This document shows positions 2,472 to 20,585 of a DNA stretch of 39,828 bases, piece after piece. The DNA is from Haloarculaceae archaeon. GTDB taxonomy: Archaea > Halobacteriota > Halobacteria > Halobacteriales > Haloarculaceae. The stretch spans positions 1-39,828 of the forward strand of contig SKTU01000149.1 in assembly GCA_007122455.1 (NCBI GenBank). Direction: 5' to 3'. Positions within the stretch are counted from its first letter, which is position 1; the number at the start of each line of letters is the position of its first letter. The notes under the pieces were generated by a model, which did no database searches, was not told the DNA's origin, and saw only the letters and a program-made list of their open reading frames with translations. The position numbers were made by a program, and so were the translations under genes.

Positions 2472-2912
2472 CAGATGGCAGTATTCCAGCGAACCCAAGC
2501 GTTCCCAACACGACTGTCCTTTCGAACTTCGCGTACATCGATCAGCTGTGGGTGATTGCAGGGCTCTCTGGTATCTGTACGGTTCCGGTCGTTTACGAGG
2601 AACTCGAAAACGCCGTTGATGACCACCCGTATCTCCAGTCAGCACTCGACATACTCGGCGACGAGATTCCAGTCACAACGGTGTCGGAAACAGTCGCAAA
2701 TAGAGACGCGGTTGTTAGTGGCCATCTCGATTCGGGTGAAGTACGAGCGTTTGCACTCGCAGATTCCCACGGCGCCGACTGCTTACCGACGACGGGGATG
2801 CTCGGTCATTCGCGAAAGCTCAAGGCGTGACCGTTGTCGGGTCGGTCGGCATCCTGTTAGCTTCACTTGACGCTGGCAAGATCGACGAATCAACCGCTAA
2901 TGAGTGGCTGTC
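2468..2912 (+). pseudogene. PIN-domain (VapC-like) toxin, frameshifted
   Basis: The frame from ATG 2468 encodes a PIN-type ribonuclease toxin: NTTVLSNFAYIDQL at the N-terminus, TVPVVYEELENAVDDHPYLQ in the middle and LDSGEVRAFALADSHG near the second acidic site. After position about 2777 the true protein continues in the +2 frame: LLTDDGDARSFAKAQGVTVV, then GILLASLDAGKIDESTANEW. The catalytic DDGD segment is therefore out of frame and the original frame stops at 2828. The end of the PIN sequence is joined at about 2905-2912 directly to the integrase relic. The reading as a dead toxin is firm; the family label is from recognition of the fold's sequence pattern. Confidence 0.75.
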
Positions 2913-3600
2913 GACGCCCTCGAAGACGGCACCGGGACGTGGGATGCTGTCCGCGCGCTCCGCGACCGGGCGCTCGTGGTCGGTCTCTGCTATACCGGAA
3001 TCCGCGCTGGCGAGCTGCTCGATCGCCCCGACGACGATCGCCGCAACGGCATCCGGTGGCGTGATGTCGATCTCGAGGACGGCCGTGTGACGGTCCTCTC
3101 GAAGAAACAGCGGTGGGATGATCGCTCACGTCCTGAACAGACGATCCACGCGCTGCGAATGCTCGAACGCGTCATCGATCCAGCCGACAACTGGCCTGTC
3201 TTCCCGACGCTCTCGCCGGAGAAACTCTTCTTACCGCTTCGAGCTGCGCTCGCCGATGATGGATACTCCGACGTCGAGATAGACGAATATCTCTCGAAAG
3301 ATCGGCTCTGTCGACTCTATTCGACGTACGAACTGACGCCCGATCCACTCCAGACGTCTGGTGGTTGATCGGTGATGAAACGACTCACTGAGGCTGCCGA
3401 GATCGATCTATAGCAGGGCACCTATCTGCAGCCCCACGGCGGCCGACGCGGAGCCGGCGAAGTGATGGTCCGAACCCACGATACGCGGCCGCAGCGAGAC
3501 TTCTCGACAACACCGAGGAGATGGTTCAGGAACGCTACTCCCATATCGAAGCAGGCGAACTCGCCGTCCTTGCCACCGTCGACCGAGATAACAAAACAGG
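2904..3600 (+). pseudogene. Tyrosine recombinase (integrase) relic
   Basis: The open part (2904-3368) reads as the catalytic domain of a haloarchaeal XerC/D-type integrase, with the first catalytic arginine in CYTGIRAGELL. In-frame TGA (3366-3368) and TAG (3411-3413) follow, between which KRLTEAAEIDL is readable. After the second stop comes PHGGRRGAGEVMVR, containing the HxxR motif (H at 3435, R at 3444). A frameshift at about 3478-3490 moves the rest, AAARLLDNTEEMVQERYSHI, to another frame; the catalytic tyrosine codon is at 3536-3538. The N-terminal core-binding domain is absent, replaced by the toxin relic. All catalytic motifs are recognisable, so inactivation may be fairly recent. Confidence 0.8.
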
Positions 3601-5187
3601 TTACTCGAGCGGAACCTCGACAAGCGACATTACATCGTTCGTGAGCGCATCCCGCAACGCTTCCTCGAGTTCGTCCCATTCTTTGGGGCGATACCCCTCG
3701 ATACCGAAGCTCTCGGCGAGCGTCATAAAGTCGGGATTCGTGAGTCCCGTTCCGAACGACTCGCCGCGGTGGGCCTGCTGCTTCTCGGAGATCAGTCCGT
3801 AATCGTCGTCGACGAACAGCAGGATCGTATAGCCACATCCCACCCTCGTCGCGGTTTCGATCTCGGCACCGTTCATCAGAAACCCGCCGTCGCCGGTCGC
3901 CGCGACGACCGCCGTGTCGGTCGCGAGATCGGCGGCGATCCCTCCCGGAACCGAGATGCCCATCGACGCCAGCCCGTTCGAGATGATACACGTGTTGGGT
4001 TCGTAGGTGAGGAAGTTCTGTGCGATCCGCATCTTGTGGCTCCCGACGTCGGAAATCAGGACGTCCGCAGCGTCCATGACATCCCGTAAAACGGGCAGAA
4101 CCGTCCGTACGGTGAACGGATCATCCTCCGACGGGTCGGCTGCGACATCAGCAAGGATGTGATCCCTGAGATCGCCGTACCATGTCTCGTCGAACTGCGT
4201 CTCGTTTTCGTCCACCCGCTCGGTAAGCTTCGCGAGTGCCGTCGAGAGATCACAGACGAGTTCGAGGTTTGGGTTGTACGCCTCGTACACCTCTGCTGGC
4301 TCGCTGTCGATGTGCACGATGATTGTGTCCGTCCCCTTGTTCCAACCGGCCGGGTCGTGTTCGGCGATGTCGTATCCGACGGTGAGGATGAGGTCGGCCA
4401 TCTCGATCGCATCCGATGCCTCCTGATGGTCACCGGAATCCAGGGTCAACAGCGACTGTGGCGAGCGATCCGAGATCGCCCCCTTCCCCATATACGTCGA
4501 CGCGACGGGGATGTCGGTCGTCTCGACGAACTCGCGGAGTCGCGCCGTGGCGTCCGTCCGTACCGCTCCGTTCCCCGCGATAATCAGCGGCCGGTCGGCT
4601 TCTTCGAGGAACGCCTGGACTCGTTGGAGCAGTTCCGAGTCCGGGGATGCGAGTCGGACACGCTCACGAGGGTCCATCGGAGTGGCGTCGGCCTCCGAGC
4701 CGGCGACGTCTTCGGGGAATTCGAGATGAGTCGCGCCGGGTTTCTCGTATTCGGCAACCTTGAACGCCTTCCGGACGGATTCGCTGATGATGTCGGGATC
4801 GTTGAGCTGCGTGTTCCACTTCGTGATCGGTCCGAACATGCCGACGATGTCGAGTGCCTGGTGGCTCTCCTTGTGCAGGCGCTCCAATCCACCCTGTCCC
4901 GTGATCGCGACGAGAGGTGCTTTGTCCAGGTTCGCGTCCGCGACACCCGTGATGAGATTCGTCGCACCGGGACCGAGCGTCCCGAGACAGACGCCCGCGT
5001 CGCCCGTGAGTCGCCCGTGAACGTTGGCCATGAACGCGGCTCCCTGCTCGTGGCGAACCGGGACGAACGCAATTTCCGAGTCCCGAAGCGAGAAGAGTAG
5101 ATCTTCGGTCTCTTCGCCGGGAACACCGAACACGTGCTCGACGCCTTCGCTCTCGAGACAGCGCACGAGCAGATCCGATGCGTTCAT
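3601..5187 (-). CDS. TPP-dependent decarboxylase, acetolactate-synthase-like (possible 2-oxoglutarate decarboxylase)
   Basis: This 528-residue enzyme has the three-domain architecture of the acetolactate synthase / benzoylformate decarboxylase superfamily. The cofactor-activating glutamate is E47 (RHEQGAAFMA), LGPGATNL is at 71-78, and the diphosphate-binding motif GDGGFLMN is at 432-439. Segments such as LVRCLESEGVEHVFGVPGEE, KESHQALDIV, ITKWN and SDVGSHKMRIAQNF resemble, from memory, the cyanobacterial enzyme first annotated as acetolactate synthase and later shown to decarboxylate 2-oxoglutarate to succinate semialdehyde. No regulatory ilvN subunit gene is adjacent. It overlaps the upstream dehydrogenase gene by 4 nt (ATGA), which supports a semialdehyde product. 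A catabolic acetolactate synthase is the main alternative. Confidence 0.85.
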   Translation of the reverse strand: MNASDLLVRCLESEGVEHVFGVPGEETEDLLFSLRDSEIAFVPVRHEQGAAFMANVHGRLTGDAGVCLGTLGPGATNLITGVADANLDKAPLVAITGQGGLERLHKESHQALDIVGMFGPITKWNTQLNDPDIISESVRKAFKVAEYEKPGATHLEFPEDVAGSEADATPMDPRERVRLASPDSELLQRVQAFLEEADRPLIIAGNGAVRTDATARLREFVETTDIPVASTYMGKGAISDRSPQSLLTLDSGDHQEASDAIEMADLILTVGYDIAEHDPAGWNKGTDTIIVHIDSEPAEVYEAYNPNLELVCDLSTALAKLTERVDENETQFDETWYGDLRDHILADVAADPSEDDPFTVRTVLPVLRDVMDAADVLISDVGSHKMRIAQNFLTYEPNTCIISNGLASMGISVPGGIAADLATDTAVVAATGDGGFLMNGAEIETATRVGCGYTILLFVDDDYGLISEKQQAHRGESFGTGLTNPDFMTLAESFGIEGYRPKEWDELEEALRDALTNDVMSLVEVPLE

Positions 5188-6584
5188 TCGGTCGGTACCT
5201 CGTCTTCGTCATTCGTCTCTGGCTGCTGGCGCCAGACGGTCTTGCGATTGACGAACTCCTTGATCCCGGCTTCCGAGAGCTCACGGCCGTAGCCGGATTC
5301 TTTCACACCACCGAACGGGACGCGCGGATCAGACTTCACCAGTTCGTTGATGTATACACAGCCAGCGTCGATACGGCTGGCCACCCGCTCGCCGCGCTCG
5401 AGGTCGTCCGTCCAGATGCTGGCTCCGAGACCGAACTCCGTGTCGTTCGCTTTCTCGACGGCGGTCTCCTCGTCGGGGACTCGGTAGACGGCTGCTACGG
5501 GGCCGAACACCTCCTCGGCGTCGACTGGACACCCCCGTGGAACGTCCGCGAGCACCGTTGGCGGATAGTACGCCCCGTCGCGGTCGAGCGGCTCACCGCC
5601 GGTGAGCACCGTCGCACCGGCGTCGACGCTCTCGGTCACCTGTTCGTGAATCCCTTCCATGAGGTCCTGGCGTGCCTGCGGTCCGACGTCCGTGTCGTGG
5701 TCCATCGGGTCGCCAACAGTGAACGACTCGACTTCCGCGACGAACCGCTCGATGAACGCCTCGTAAACGGCGTCGTGGACGACGAACCGCTTGGCAGCGA
5801 TACACGATTGACCACCGTTCAGGTTACGTGCCCAGGCAGCGGTCGTCGCGGCAGCTTCGACGTCAGCGTCATCGAGGACGACGTACGGATCGCTCCCGCC
5901 GAGTTCGAGAACGGTCTTCTTGAGGTTCTCGCCGGCCGTGCCAGCGACCGCTTGTCCCGCCGGGCCGCTCCCAGTCAGCGTCGCCGCTTTGACGCGCGGA
6001 TCCGAGAGGACCGCGTCGACGCGATCTGATGAGATCAGCAGCGTCTGGAACGTACCGTCGGGAAACCCGGCGTCGCGGAACACGTCCTCGATAGCGAGTG
6101 CACACTCCGGCACGTTCGAGGCGTGTTTGAGGAGCCCGACGTTCCCCGCCGCTACGTAGGGGGCTGCGAATCGAAACACCTGCCAGAACGGGAAGTTCCA
6201 CGGCATGATTGCGAGTACGGGCCCAAGCGGTTCGTGGACCGTCTTCACGGTCGAACCCGGCGGACTCGGATGCTGTTCGTCCTGTAGATAGCGTCCCGCG
6301 TGCTCAGCGTAGTAATCACAGACCCACGCGCACTTTTCGACCTCCGCCTCGGCCTGGGCGATCGGCTTGCCCATCTCACGAGTCATCAGTTCCGCGTAGT
6401 CGGTCATCCGGTCACGAAGCAACGTAGCCACCTCCGCGAGTGTCGTTTCGCGCTCCGCCACGGACCAGTCTCTGAACGTTTCGAACGTCGATTCGGCCCT
6501 CGAAAGCCGCTCTTCGACCTGCCCGTCGTCGTGTTCGTCGTACGTTTCGATCGTCTCTCCGGTCGCAGGATTGATTCGTTCCAT
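5184..6584 (-). CDS. Aldehyde dehydrogenase, succinate-semialdehyde type
   Basis: This is a full-length (466 residues) NAD(P)-dependent aldehyde dehydrogenase. The nucleotide-binding and catalytic signatures are all present: MPWNFPFWQVFRFAAP (128-142), KHASNVP with K153, LTGSGPAGQ, general-base glutamate E227 in LELGGSDP, and nucleophile C261 in GGQSCIAAKRF. These sequences fit the GabD1/Sad-like succinate-semialdehyde dehydrogenases found also in cyanobacteria. It is the first gene of a two-gene operon, and its stop overlaps the ATG of the TPP enzyme. The likely role is oxidation of succinate semialdehyde to succinate. Substrate assignment is inference; the family is secure. Confidence 0.9.
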   Translation of the reverse strand: MERINPATGETIETYDEHDDGQVEERLSRAESTFETFRDWSVAERETTLAEVATLLRDRMTDYAELMTREMGKPIAQAEAEVEKCAWVCDYYAEHAGRYLQDEQHPSPPGSTVKTVHEPLGPVLAIMPWNFPFWQVFRFAAPYVAAGNVGLLKHASNVPECALAIEDVFRDAGFPDGTFQTLLISSDRVDAVLSDPRVKAATLTGSGPAGQAVAGTAGENLKKTVLELGGSDPYVVLDDADVEAAATTAAWARNLNGGQSCIAAKRFVVHDAVYEAFIERFVAEVESFTVGDPMDHDTDVGPQARQDLMEGIHEQVTESVDAGATVLTGGEPLDRDGAYYPPTVLADVPRGCPVDAEEVFGPVAAVYRVPDEETAVEKANDTEFGLGASIWTDDLERGERVASRIDAGCVYINELVKSDPRVPFGGVKESGYGRELSEAGIKEFVNRKTVWRQQPETNDEDEVPTE

Positions 6585-6933
6585 TGGTGTGTCAGCTCTG
6601 TGTTGTCGTTTTCTTCCGAGTGGTTACCGAGTGACCGTCTCTGGTACCCTTCTACGCAGAACACGCATCCCACAGATCGACGGGCGAGTCTCACTACGTT
6701 CTGGGGCCGTCCGTCGCCACCTCGATTCCTCGGCGCTCGGCAAACCCGTTATGTAGCTGCTCTCCCGGCCTTTCACGCGAAGCCACCTCCGTCCAGTATC
6801 AGTCAGTGTCTGTTACAGCCACTCACACTACGTCGCGAACTCACTTGAATACCGGCGCTACTATCCCCGATGGTGGTGTGAATGGCATCGGGAACTAATC
6901 CCGGGGTCCACGTCTGCTCTGTCTTGGTGAGAT
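6585..6933. other. Intergenic region without recognised gene
   Basis: These 349 bp separate the dehydrogenase operon from the desuccinylase relic. I see no coding signal with haloarchaeal character, no RNA-gene structure and no clear repeat. A T-rich stretch near 6608-6615 sits about 27 nt upstream of the dehydrogenase start (minus strand) and could be a weak TATA-like element. Confidence 0.5.
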
Positions 6934-7506
6934 TCAGTCGTGAGCGCGGCCGGTTCGCTCTTCGATAATTCGTTCCTGCATCTCACCGATCCTGATGAAA
7001 TGACAGAGTGGATTTCCGGGGTATACGACTGGATTTTCGAGCACACCGACGAGAAGCCCCGTAAACGGTGCCTTCACCGTCGTCTCATCGCTTTTAAACG
7101 GATTTGTAATCCGGCAGATCGTCTCGCCTTCGTGAACTAATTCTCCCCGTTCGTAGTGCATTTCGACGATCCCACCAGCGTCAGCCCGGAGCCACGTTTT
7201 GTCGTTCCAGCCCTCGATAACTGTGCGCCACCCTGGCCACCGAACGGTTTCCTGCTGATAGATGCCATACTCGGCGAACACACTCCGAACTCCATCAAGC
7301 GCGTGATCGATTAATTCTCGCTCGAAGCGATGTGCCTTGCCCATTTCGGGGGTGATCGTCGGAACGCCGTCGTCTGTCGCTTCCCGACGGAGCATCCCCT
7401 CCGAACCTTTGCCAGCCATAATGAGATTCGTTCCGAACGCGCGAGCGAGTCGCGCAGCTCCCTTATTGTCCATGTCAGCACGGACGTGGAGCATGTTCGC
7501 CCGCCC
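6934..7506 (-). pseudogene. Succinylglutamate desuccinylase/aspartoacylase-like C-terminal fragment
   Basis: The C-terminal ~190 residues of an AstE/AspA-family (M14-like) zinc amidohydrolase are intact and open: LHVRADMDNKGAARLARAFG, VPTITPEMGKAHRF, VFAEYGIYQQETVRWPGWRT, KTWLRADAGGIVEMHYERGE, then TVKAPFTGLLVGVLENPVVY. The last segments form the barrel-sandwich domain typical of the family. The N-terminal part with the zinc-binding HxxE is missing. At about 7505 the sequence switches to a glutathionyl-hydroquinone-reductase-like head in another frame, so this is the 3' half of a gene broken by a deletion or recombination. The short open frame could still be translated, but without the metal site it cannot be the active enzyme. 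Confidence 0.75.
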
Positions 7507-7762
7507 ACGGGTCGACGATGTCCATCGAAACGACAACGGTCAGGCTGGCGAGTCGGCGTGTGAGCGCAGCACCGTGTGCCCACGGACAGTTCCGCGCGAT
7601 GTAGAGGTGGTATCGCCCAGTTGCCGGCTGGAATTTGCTATCCGGGGCGTCCCGAATCCAATCACGGAACGAGGTTTCAGCCCTATCGAACGAGCCACTT
7701 TCGTCAGTATACGGTTCGATATCCGTCTTCCAGTCCCCGTCGACGAACATATTCCGGCCCAT
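7505..7762 (-). pseudogene. Glutathione S-transferase (Ecm4/YqjG-like) N-terminal fragment
   Basis: The first ~86 residues match the start of glutathionyl-hydroquinone-reductase-like proteins: MFVDGDWKTD, FDRAETSFRDWIRDAP, FQPATGRYHLYIARNCPWAH, where C59 is the family's nucleophilic cysteine, and VVSMDIVDPWA. The rest of the thioredoxin fold and the helical domain are gone. From about 7505 the DNA becomes desuccinylase sequence in a different frame. The ORF closes 9 codons after the junction. Haloarchaea lack glutathione, so intact homologues probably use gamma-glutamylcysteine or another thiol. Here only a dead 5' remnant survives. Confidence 0.75.
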
Positions 7763-7850: not shown

Positions 7851-8505
7851 TCAGATGAATTCGGAGTTCTGCGGGCCGTTCGTAATGTGGACCTCGAACG
7901 GCTGTGTACTGATATCGTCCTGTTCGACGAGGTGCCAGTAGGTCTCGGCCATCTCGTCGGGATCGAGGAACGTCTCGTCGTCGCTGTCAGAGAACCGCTC
8001 ACGGACGTCCAACGTGTCGATCTCCCCGTCGATGCCTTCGCGCGGTTACGCCGCTCGAACGGCCCGAGACGGCTTTGCCGCCTCGCTGACGACGTGCGCG
8101 ACGTGAATGTCCTCGGGGCCGATCTTGGGCCAATCCATCGCCATCCCGTGGGCGGCAAACTTCGCAGCCGTGAACCCGATCGCGCCGCCGAGGCACCGTA
8201 CTGTAGAGGTCACGCCCGTGAAAATAACCGTCCTACCGCCCGTTTCGAGCATATCTCCGACCGCTTACTGCGAACAGACGAACTCGCTGCGACCGTTGAC
8301 CGCCCACGCCCGTTCGAATTCCTCGACGCTCACGTCCATGAGGCCCTTCTAGGAGGCGGCACTGGCATAATTCACGAGGACATCGACCGAACCGAACGCT
8401 TCTCGGATTGTCTCGAACCTCTGCCGTATTTGACCAACGTCTGTAAAATCAGTCTGAACGACACTGGGCGCACCATTCGATTTTCCAGGATCACTGAAAA
8501 TAAGA
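7851..8505 (-). pseudogene. Short-chain dehydrogenase relic
   Basis: Reading leftwards, the relic shows VVQTDFTDVGQIRQRFETIR, FGSVDVLVNYASAAS, a TAG stop (8349-8351), KGLMDVSVEEFERAWAVN, a TAA stop (8265-8267), then MLETGGRTVIFTGVTSTV and GGAIGFTAAKFAAHGMAMDW. Around 8040 the frame shifts, and the C-terminus continues as GIDGEIDTLDVRERF, DDETFLDPDEMAETYWHLVE and ends QNSEFI at the stop 7851-7853. The order matches an SDR oxidoreductase; the usual Tyr-x-x-x-Lys appears as a degraded FTAAK. The N-terminal glycine-rich NAD motif is not found. Two stops and a frameshift make it a clear pseudogene. Confidence 0.8.
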
Positions 8506-13341: not shown

Positions 13342-15030
13342 CTACGGGGATTCCTCCGGTGGACGCGTCACGGCCCCGCGCTCCGCAGAATCGAACATCG
13401 AACCGTACTTCGCGAGAGCACGCGGGACCTCGCCGTGTCTCGTCGGCCGGTGGTTCTCGAGCCGCGACTCGATCTCCGCGTCGCTGAGATCGGCGTCGAC
13501 GCGACGGTTCGGGATGTCGACCGTGATAACGTCGCCGTCCTCGAGTGCCGCGATCGGGCCGCCGACGTACGCCTCCGGGGCGACGTGACCGATCATCGGC
13601 CCCCGAGTCGCCCCGGAGAAGCGGCCGTCGGTGAGCAACACGACGTCGTCCTCGTGTCCGGAGCCGACGATGGCCGCCGTTATCTGGAGCATCTCCCGCA
13701 TTCCGGGGCCGCCCTGAGGTCCCTCGTTCCGGATGACGACGACGTCGCCAGAGTCGATCTCCCCGCTCTGTACGGCCTCGAACGCATCCTCCTCCCGCTC
13801 GAAGACCCGGGCCGTCCCCTCGAAGACGAACTCCTCGTCGTATCCCGAGATCTTCACGACCGAACCGCCGGGCGCGACGTTGCCGCGGAGAACCGCGACG
13901 GCCCCTTTCTCGTGAACGGGATCGTCGAGCGGGAAGACGACGTCGGGATCGGGGTCGGGAAGCTCGAGCGCCTCGATGTTCTCCGCCATCGTCTGCCCCG
14001 TAACCGTGAGCACGTCACCGTGGAGGAGACCGGCATCCAGCAGTCGCTTCAGGATCACGGGAACGCCCCCGTTCTCGTGGAGATGCGACATCGCGTACTC
14101 GCCGCCCGGAAGGAAGTTTCCGATGCAGGGGGTGCGCTGTGAGATCCGGTCGAAATCCTCGAGATCCAGTTCGACACCGGCCTCTTCAGCGATCGCGAGC
14201 AGGTGGAGAACCGCGTTCGTCGAGCCGCCGATCGCCATCTGGACCGCGATGGCGTTCTCGAACGCCTCCTTCGTCAGGATGTCGCTCGGCCGAATGTCGC
14301 GTTCGATCACCGTCATCAACAGCTCGCCGGTGTCGTAGGCTACCTCCAGCCGATCGGTCGTTTCAGCGGGTGCGGACGCCGATCCCGGTGGAGCGAGTCC
14401 GAGCGCTTCGCTGATCGTTGCCATCGTATTCGCCGTGTACATTCCGGGACAGGAGCCTTCGCCGGGACAGGCCGCGTGCTCGATCCGCTCCAGTTCCTCG
14501 GCGGTGATCGTCCCCTCCGAGTACGCACCGACCGCCTCGATGGCGTCCTGTCCGGTGATCTCCGCGCCGTCCAGCTGACCGGGCATCATCGCCCCGCCGT
14601 AGAGAAAGACGCTCGGAAGATCCATCCGAGCGGCCGCCATCATCATCGCGGGATGGTTCTTGTCGCAGCCGGCGATGCCGAGGAACGCGTCGAGCCGTTC
14701 GGCGAACATCACGGTCTCGACGGAGTCGGCGATCATCTCCCGCGAAACGAGCGAGGCCTTCATCCCCTGGTGGCCCATCGAGATTGCGTCGGAAATCGTG
14801 ATCGTGCCGAACTCCATCGGCGTACCGCCGTGGTCGGCGATCCCCTCGGTCGCTCGATCGGCAACGCGGTCGAGGTGGATGTTACAGGGGGTGACGTCGG
14901 CCGAGGGGTTTGCGATCCCGACCATCGGCTGTTCGAGGTCGTCGGCCGAGAGACCGGTCGCATACAACATCGAGCGGTGAGCGGCCCGTTCGACTCCTTC
15001 CGTCACTTCTGCACTCCGTCTATCGGTCAT
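13342..15030 (-). CDS. ilvD: Dihydroxy-acid dehydratase
   Basis: This 562-residue enzyme of branched-chain amino acid biosynthesis dehydrates 2,3-dihydroxy-isovalerate and its homologue. The family's cysteines for the iron-sulfur cluster are seen in [22 protein letters not shown] and [15 protein letters not shown]. The C-terminal signatures [11 protein letters not shown] and GHVAPEA are present, and the length is normal. A TATA-like CTATAGA at 15060-15066 (minus strand) fits ATG 15030. No ilvB/ilvN/ilvC is adjacent, so it is a stand-alone gene here. The acetolactate-synthase-like gene at 3601 is 8 kb away and not linked. Confidence 0.97.
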
Positions 15031-19454: not shown

Positions 19455-20585
19455 TCACTCGAGCGGCCAGTTCGCCGCGTGGTGTTCGACCGCGCGGTCC
19501 GTCCACTGCTCGGCCAATCCGACGCTCTCTCCGTATCGGTCGAACGGATCGCCGGTGCCGTGATCCTCGAGTGAGACCGTCGTGTCGAGCGCTCCTTCGA
19601 GAACGCCCAGCGTCGCGAACGCGAGGTGACTCACCTGGTAGCCGCCCTCCTGAATCAGCACGTACTGACCGTCGGCCGTCTCCGTGGCGAGTTCGCGGAA
19701 CCGGTTCGCGATCGTCCGGAACCCTGGCCGCGTGACGAGGTTTCGCGCGAGCGGATCGGAGACACCGGCGTCCTGTCCGGCCGACGCGACGAGCAGGTCC
19801 GGATCGTACGCCCGAACGACCGGTTCGACGATCCGCTCGAAGACGTGTTCGTATCCCTCGTCGCCGGTTCCCGGCGGCAACGGCACGTTGACCGTACAGC
19901 CTTCGCCGTCGCCGACGCCGACCTCCTCGAGGCTCCCCTCCTGGGGATGATACTCCGGATGCCACGCGCCGTGGTCGTTGTGCAGGGAGATCAGCAGAAC
20001 GTCGTCGCGGTCGTAGAAGATCTCCTGAGTCCCGTTGCCGTGGTGGACGTCCCAGTCGACGATTGCGACGCGATCGGCCGCCTCCTCGCGTGCCGCCTCG
20101 GCCGCGAGCGCGGCGTTGTTGAAGAAACAGAAACCGTCAGCACAGTGTGGCTGGGCGTGGTGACCGCTCGGGCGACAGAGCGCGTAGTGGACGCCCGCTT
20201 CGCCCCGAAGCGCTGCGCGAGTCGCCTCGACCGCCGCGCTCGCGGCGTACCGGGCCGCCTCGAAGGAGTGTTCGTTCACGCCGGTGGTGGTGTCTTCGAT
20301 CCGACCGCCGCCGTCGGCGGAGAACGACTCGAACCAATCGATGTAGTCGGGATCGTGGACGGTCTCGATCAGCTCTCGCGGGGCACAATCGACCGACTCG
20401 AACCGCGCCGTGTCGCCGAAGGCGACCTCGATCATCCGCTTTATATTCCGGATCCGTTCGGGTTGGTCGGGATGCGATTCGGCGGTGTCGAGGATCGCCG
20501 GCTTGCGCAGATGCAGCGCACCGTCGGGAGCTTCGTGCTTCAGTGTCTCCTCGTTCCAGTAGACGTTCAGCTCTGCCGTAGCCAT
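19455..20585 (-). CDS. Histone-deacetylase-family amidohydrolase
   Basis: This 376-residue enzyme belongs to the arginase/deacetylase superfamily that includes class II HDACs and acetylpolyamine amidohydrolases. Zinc and charge-relay residues are visible: CRPSGHHAQP (tandem His), DGFCFFNN, DWDVHHGNGT (Asp, His ligands), SLHNDHGAWHPEY, VASAGQDAGVSDP (third ligand Asp) and QEGGYQ (Tyr). The length fits a single catalytic domain. In archaea the natural substrate is uncertain: acetylated proteins or acetylpolyamines are plausible. It stands alone and converges on ridA. Confidence 0.9.
   Translation of the reverse strand: MATAELNVYWNEETLKHEAPDGALHLRKPAILDTAESHPDQPERIRNIKRMIEVAFGDTARFESVDCAPRELIETVHDPDYIDWFESFSADGGGRIEDTTTGVNEHSFEAARYAASAAVEATRAALRGEAGVHYALCRPSGHHAQPHCADGFCFFNNAALAAEAAREEAADRVAIVDWDVHHGNGTQEIFYDRDDVLLISLHNDHGAWHPEYHPQEGSLEEVGVGDGEGCTVNVPLPPGTGDEGYEHVFERIVEPVVRAYDPDLLVASAGQDAGVSDPLARNLVTRPGFRTIANRFRELATETADGQYVLIQEGGYQVSHLAFATLGVLEGALDTTVSLEDHGTGDPFDRYGESVGLAEQWTDRAVEHHAANWPLE

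Follow-up and report, generated by a model that had tools for sequence, protein, structure and literature searches.

A candidate 2-oxoglutarate decarboxylase and succinic semialdehyde dehydrogenase gene pair in a haloarchaeal genome

Introduction

Can a gene that is routinely named acetolactate synthase serve, in an archaeon, at the 2-oxoglutarate step of the tricarboxylic acid (TCA) cycle? The question is raised by two genes in a 39,828 nt stretch of DNA (the window), which is contig SKTU01000149.1, positions 1 to 39,828, of the Haloarculaceae assembly GCA_007122455.1. One gene (3601..5187, minus strand) encodes a thiamine diphosphate (ThDP) enzyme of 528 aa, a candidate 2-oxoglutarate decarboxylase (OgdA/KGD-like) on the basis of its PRK08322 match, trees and residues. 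The other (5184..6584, minus strand) encodes an aldehyde dehydrogenase (ALDH) of 466 aa, assigned to succinic semialdehyde dehydrogenase (SSADH) of the SsaD/GabD1/Sad type by model NF006915, PDB entry 4it9 and active-site residues. The pair probably constitutes a cyanobacterial-type, two-step, CoA-independent bypass from 2-oxoglutarate to succinate, a reading to which a probability of roughly 0.7 is given. The original prediction for this locus was likewise a 2-oxoglutarate decarboxylase with an SSADH, and trees, active-site residues and the conserved SSADH pairing now lend it support.

The ThDP enzyme would convert 2-oxoglutarate to succinic semialdehyde and CO2, and the coupled dehydrogenase would take succinic semialdehyde to succinate, with NADP+ probably preferred since Lys154 and Ser157 are kept. 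This chemistry is read from homology, pocket residues and the partner gene; the substrate, product, cofactor preference, expression and physiological role of the pair are put forward as proposals. In the window's organism the bypass would run beside the haloarchaeal 2-oxoglutarate:ferredoxin oxidoreductase (KorAB), the product of which is succinyl-CoA. In the few relatives in which KorA was not detected, oxidation of 2-oxoglutarate to succinate may depend chiefly on the bypass.

The gene pair

Both open reading frames (ORFs) were confirmed on the minus strand, as was the ATGA overlap (5184..5187, minus strand) to which attention had been drawn, in which the ALDH stop and the ThDP-enzyme start are shared; it is visible in the reverse complement CGAATGAACG (positions 5181-5190). 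The overlap may couple translation of the two genes. Family matches span the full length of both proteins. The ratio of nonsynonymous to synonymous substitution (dN/dS) is 0.12-0.14 for each gene when compared with the two nearest relatives, thus both are maintained coding genes. By gene position, the pair has the arrangement by which OgdA/SsaD operons are recognized, that is, adjacent genes on the same strand. Two further statements of the original prediction are also borne out: a haloarchaeal origin is supported by the 13 best plasmid matches, each of them haloarchaeal, and ilvN is not adjacent. An ilvB-ilvN-ilvC operon sits on another contig (C72) of the same genome, with ilvN and ilvC identified by eye from translation.

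Family assignment of the ThDP enzyme

Family-model scores for the window proteins cover the best 25 of 52 families. Against NCBIfam NF006187/PRK08322 the ThDP enzyme reaches 615 bits (cut-off 509), and it falls under the cut-offs of the AlsS models (429 versus 510 and 384 versus 551 bits) and of the IlvB models among the matches listed. NF006187/PRK08322 carries the NCBIfam name ‘acetolactate synthase large subunit’, which is the automatic label of the gene. This name probably misleads annotation, as the highest scores found here go to the cyanobacterial SSADH-linked 2-oxoglutarate decarboxylase group. Within five cyanobacterial genomes the top PRK08322 gene scores 868-883 bits and the runner-up, taken as IlvB, 373-388 bits. 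The top gene adjoins SSADH in L068 and L104, lies ~2 kb from it in L063 and L088, and is outside the locus in the fifth, L051.

The cyanobacterial reference ThDP enzyme was found via its partner SSADH. Among solved structures in the PDB, the window ALDH matches SSADH 4it9/3vz1 best (E 3e-152); 3VZ3, in the same match group, is the Synechococcus PCC 7002 SSADH according to the accessible text of PMC7510979. Genome G093 holds an SSADH 99 % identical to the PDB enzyme, and the adjoining ThDP gene (L144), used here as ‘A2770-like’, would be A2770 itself. Seventeen active-site residues of the Microcystis enzyme MaKGD are listed in the accessible text of PMC10418658, and all 17 are identical in L144 at one constant offset. 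Three segments had been predicted to be nearer the cyanobacterial enzyme than IlvB, and this is borne out: 15/20, 7/10 and 8/14 positions are identical to the A2770-like protein, compared with 10-11/20, 5/10 and 5/14 for two AlsS and 9-12/20, 3/10 and 5-7/14 for two IlvB.

A structure prediction of the ThDP enzyme from 15 alignment rows has a mean predicted local distance difference test score (pLDDT) of 76.7, with a poor stretch at 99-175, and its Foldseek matches have a root-mean-square deviation of ~15-16 Å. The predicted model backs only the ThDP-enzyme fold, and the pocket arguments below are not based on it.

Phylogeny of the ThDP enzyme

Three maximum-likelihood trees with midpoint roots were inspected (67, 71 and 61 rows), with KGD anchored by the A2770-like L144 and by further ThDP genes linked to SSADH in cyanobacteria. 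The first holds a selection of 19 cyanobacterial KGD-type rows. The second is without three long-branch paralogues from the window's genome (L002-L004) and seven cyanobacterial rows, and the third is without ten haloarchaeal, two presumed methanogen, two cyanobacterial and two IlvB rows. In all three, the window enzyme lies inside a fully supported haloarchaeal clade, the sister of which consists of plasmid genes from the marine bacteria Vibrio, Sulfitobacter and Octadecabacter (support 98-99/94). The haloarchaeal clade and cyanobacterial KGD share the PRK08322 clade, which is split from AlsS with support of 96-99/87-92 and from IlvB with 100/99-100. AlsS is monophyletic and separate (100/100) in the tree with 8 AlsS rows. 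A position inside the IlvB or AlsS clade, named beforehand as the outcome that would count against a decarboxylase, was looked for and is absent from the three trees. An AlsS-sister placement is disfavoured, though not rejected. Under the approximately unbiased (AU) test, a clade of haloarchaeal, Vibrio-type and cyanobacterial rows has p 0.394 and is neither established nor rejected.

Other members of the PRK08322 clade are found in different surroundings. Two ThDP proteins from Roseomonas and Pectobacterium plasmids (L166, L167) lie beside AEC-family transporters and have Ile for His at 385 and Ser at 408; this group appears to be related, with a function that probably differs.

Active-site residues

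The window ThDP enzyme keeps 14 of the 17 listed MaKGD residues, including E50, H385, K386, M410, D435, D462, Y465, L467 and K471. The exceptions are A384, which is Ser, Q254, which is not kept, and Y531, which lies beyond the shorter C-terminus. Of the 2-oxoglutarate contacts predicted by docking (V382, K386, A408, L467, K471 and Q254), five of six are identical and Q254 differs. The ThDP/Mg residues and the catalytic Glu (E50, GDGG 434-437 and D462) are all identical as well, but are weakly diagnostic because many are common to other ThDP enzymes.

Across the haloarchaeal rows H385, K386, A408, M410, D435, D462 and L467 are present in 33/33, Y465 in 32/33, V382 in 30/33 and K471 in 27/33. 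Neither K386 nor K471 occurs in any of 11 IlvB or 8 AlsS rows. The IlvB rows have Q/G/W at 386/408/471, and the AlsS rows have H, Y, A, G or a gap at 386 and Q at both 408 and 471.

The partner dehydrogenase

The window ALDH is 51 % identical to the cyanobacterial SSADH 4it9. It scores 617 bits against NF006915, under the cut-off of 730, and is thus placed in the wider family as SSADH-like, not under the NF006915 equivalog. All 10 comparable residues from the list in the accessible text of PMC7510979 are kept (W130, N131, W135, R139, K154, S157, S207, E228, C262 and S419), as they are in 32/32 haloarchaeal homologues compared; residue 360, named for the Cyanothece SSADH, failed to align and was excluded from this count. 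The catalytic pair C262/E228, the semialdehyde carboxylate site W135/R139/S419 and the NADP site K154/S157 are each complete in the window. K154 and S157 determine NADP preference in the Cyanothece enzyme (accessible text of PMC7510979), so that the public label ‘NAD-dependent’ may be wrong.

Conservation of the pairing

The haloarchaeal loci compared number 40 and comprise 6 of 13 haloarchaeal plasmid records, 18 loci from 17 genomes, and 16 picked from genomes over the cut-off. SSADH is directly upstream on the same strand in 28 of the 40, with gaps of -13 to 207 bp by ORF calling, and the identical 4-base overlap occurs in 16. Three more loci have SSADH 1.0-1.8 kb upstream and one has it on the opposite strand ~2 kb off. 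In the remaining eight SSADH is not in the locus; it was found elsewhere in the genome in 7/7 tested, at 60-66 % identity. Near-copies (>95 % identical) account for three of the 40 loci, all with the pair, and without them the count is 25/37. As a control, no ALDH was found within 1.5 kb flanks of seven haloarchaeal loci taken as IlvB. Of 52 cyanobacterial loci found through SSADH, 44 have the ThDP gene in the locus, 41 of them within 400 bp downstream; none of 16 acidobacterial loci found in the same way has one.

Related arrangements were seen outside the haloarchaea. Four loci come from a family of the same phylum (f19), presumed to be Methanosarcina kin because M. acetivorans rings as a control. 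Three of them have ALDH upstream, at distances of 2 bp, 231 bp and 2 kb, and the fourth lacks it. The ThDP proteins of these presumed methanogens (L185-L188) are PRK08322 members at 722-800 bits, and ALDH is directly upstream in L186 and L185; a second archaeal lineage with the bypass is possible. On a plasmid of Sulfitobacter sp. S190 (L038), a ThDP relative with 46.6 % identity lies ~20 bp downstream of gdhA, encoding glutamate dehydrogenase, which would supply 2-oxoglutarate.

Mobility and surrounding DNA

Plasmids of Halorarius halobius and of Haloarcula sp. JP-L23 carry the same pair, with ThDP proteins 91-92 % identical to that of the window; blastn against the two plasmids delimits a two-gene unit at 3598..6612. 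Along a 17.6-kb stretch of the Haloarcula plasmid, shared DNA is limited to 3600-6612 (91.0 %, blastn), which covers the two genes plus a few bases. A 25.6-kb stretch of the Halorarius plasmid shares 3598-6588 (88.5 %), 6933-7517, which falls in the AstE/AspA gene described below, and 105 bp at 8335-8439. These limits suggest that the pair moves as a unit, and near-identical copies on plasmids from more than one genus point to a way in which such a bypass can spread.

Directly upstream of the pair is a 5′-truncated AstE/AspA-family gene (6934..7614, minus strand; PF24827). Only residues 120-341 are aligned by tblastn, at 77 % identity, and the first ~120 residues are missing. On the Halorarius plasmid (L034) a longer copy immediately precedes the pair, beside a RimK/LysX gene. 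On the other side, a probable tyrosine-recombinase remnant (2904..3595, plus strand) was read by eye and runs up to the stop codon of the ThDP gene; the part scanned (2904-3368) matched neither a Pfam nor an NCBIfam family. The GC content drops to 54-59 % in places within the first 10 kb of the window, is 61-63 % in the stretches of the pair, and is 62-70 % further right. Two other genes on the contig have no linkage to the pair, namely IlvD (dihydroxy-acid dehydratase, 13342-15030) and a histone-deacetylase-domain gene (19455-20585).

Distribution and the ferredoxin route

Of 242 genomes sampled from the class, 78 have the ThDP gene over the cut-off, which is thus common but patchy; the rarity implied by the original prediction does not hold. 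Its expectation of a second route beside a ferredoxin oxidoreductase does, as a KorA-type subunit with 82 % identity to the query is present in the window's genome. KorAB is the known haloarchaeal 2-oxoglutarate:ferredoxin oxidoreductase and has two subunits (accessible text of PMC8305020). A KorA-type protein was found in 237/242 class genomes. NCBIfam models fail to separate haloarchaeal Kor from Por, and the two were assigned by subunit lengths, which we take to be about 588/289 aa for Kor and 631/312 aa for Por.

At an E limit of 1e-170, no KorA-type protein was found in five genomes (G044, G045, G046, G451 and G661); gaps in draft assemblies can hide genes. Three of these (G044, G045 and G661) hold the ThDP gene and SSADH. 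A link between lack of KorA and presence of the ThDP gene was considered, and is not significant (3/5 versus 75/237, Fisher p 0.33). The small haloarchaeal genome G045 (L146) is 98 % complete and, while holding both genes, has zero matches to TIGR03710, the alpha family of 2-oxoacid:ferredoxin oxidoreductases. In G046 and G451 (2.1-2.2 Mb, 1-3 contigs) the KorA type, ThDP gene and SSADH were all not found, and these genomes apparently have none of these routes at the 2-oxoglutarate step. The E1 component of 2-oxoglutarate dehydrogenase is over the cut-off in 0/8 genomes tested. A missing succinyl-CoA synthetase beta subunit in the window's genome was dropped as a clue, the assembly being 87 % complete; the corresponding model is matched in 25/25 relatives at E <= 1e-40, with 22 over the cut-off.

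Weighing the explanations

Several observations weigh against the bypass. The 40 haloarchaeal loci are a non-random sample. The window ThDP enzyme is only 46 % identical to the A2770-like protein, and the PRK08322 model is not KGD-specific: the control genomes listed for it at E <= 1e-130 are those of B. subtilis, M. jannaschii and M. acetivorans, and two of these exceed its cut-off. Subgroup order within the PRK08322 clade is weak (85-94/46-84 in two trees) and the second tree gives none, and the clade includes Streptomyces, Roseomonas, Pectobacterium and Agrobacterium rows of unknown function that keep K386 and K471. Within the pocket, Q254 is present in 0/33 haloarchaeal rows, A384 is mostly Ser, Y531 is missing because the C-terminus is shorter, and 6/33 rows have N or Q in place of K471. 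Additionally, the roles of Q254, K386 and K471 come from docking, not mutants, in the accessible text of PMC10418658.

Were the ThDP enzyme an AlsS-like acetolactate synthase in acetoin or branched-chain synthesis, and the dehydrogenase an unrelated neighbour, the NCBIfam name would be correct, and the nearest solved structures are indeed AlsS, in a match list that names no 2-oxoglutarate decarboxylase. The formal tree rejection of AlsS kinship that had been expected was not obtained either; a grouping of the haloarchaeal rows with AlsS survives the AU test (p 0.075 with 2 AlsS rows, 0.083 with 8). However, the scores under the AlsS and IlvB cut-offs, the separate AlsS clade, the lack of AlsS and IlvB residues at 386, 408 and 471, the ilvBNC genes elsewhere in the genome and the conserved SSADH partner all argue the other way. 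Furthermore, budA adjoins three of six fetched AlsS loci (300-bp flanks, one record unannotated), and no Pfam acetolactate decarboxylase match was found among the window ORFs scanned. An acetolactate synthase is therefore very unlikely. It is also unlikely that another dicarboxylic 2-oxoacid (e.g. oxaloacetate, 2-oxoadipate or a branched or hydroxylated relative) is decarboxylated or ligated, with the dehydrogenase taking the matching semialdehyde. K386 and K471 fit any dicarboxylate, the differences from MaKGD at Q254, A384 and Y531 leave room for such a substrate, and further branches of the clade are uncharacterized and lie next to different genes, the AEC transporters among them. The complete carboxylate-binding set W135, R139 and S419 argues for a C4 semialdehyde, and MaKGD, the closest characterized kin, used only 2-oxoglutarate of six 2-oxoacids, although the panel in the accessible text of PMC10418658 held no other dicarboxylic 2-oxoacid.

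The same chemistry could serve a peripheral role, in glutamate-related catabolism or NADPH supply and not as a TCA bypass; this overlaps with the bypass reading, does not exclude it, and falls somewhat short of even odds. The KorA type in nearly all class genomes including the window's, the patchy distribution with the nearest copies on plasmids, the truncated AstE/AspA gene upstream and gdhA beside the Sulfitobacter homologue are in its favour, whereas the three genomes that keep the pair without detectable KorA speak for a central role, though with the non-significant association given above. The broader proposal that about one-third of haloarchaea carry a mobile, two-gene, CoA-independent and NADPH-yielding bypass homologous to the cyanobacterial one, which in G044, G045 and G661 has replaced KorAB, is tentative and rather doubtful.

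If the bypass reading is true, many haloarchaea would have a TCA-cycle enzyme under the routine label of acetolactate synthase, and archaeal models with only ferredoxin enzymes at the 2-oxoglutarate step would need a second branch, one that uses different electron carriers and gives no substrate-level ATP. If KorAB has been replaced, the TCA cycle of these archaea would be completed in a way that has until now been attributed to cyanobacteria. Because some genomes carry the gene but no detectable KorA, a direct genetic test is feasible.

Comparison with known systems

No recognized report of this bypass in haloarchaea was found in the literature searched, mostly outside subscription papers. 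The cyanobacterial OgdA/SsaD systems (Synechococcus 7002 A2770/A2771 and Microcystis MaKGD) consist of the same two families in the same order, SSADH then ThDP enzyme, with 46 % (ThDP enzyme) and 51 % (SSADH) identity to the window proteins and most catalytic residues kept. Unlike these, the window's host is archaeal and also has a ferredoxin-linked KorA-type enzyme. The window pair has a 4-base overlap where the cyanobacterial L144 has a 49-base spacer, and its ThDP protein is 17 aa shorter, lacks Y531 and does not keep Q254.

The presumed Methanosarcina kin (L185, L186) likewise have a PRK08322 member with ALDH upstream in two of four loci; however, their ThDP enzymes, of unknown function, are 39-46 % identical to that of the window, have other residues at 254 and 471 and form their own branches. 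AlsS/BudB has the ThDP-enzyme fold and a similar length in common with the window enzyme at ~32 % identity, but belongs to another clade, has other residues at 386, 408 and 471, and has budA as a neighbour in half of the six loci. Haloarchaeal KorAB acts at the same step as the proposed bypass, the oxidation of 2-oxoglutarate, but is an unrelated two-subunit ferredoxin enzyme (accessible text of PMC8305020).

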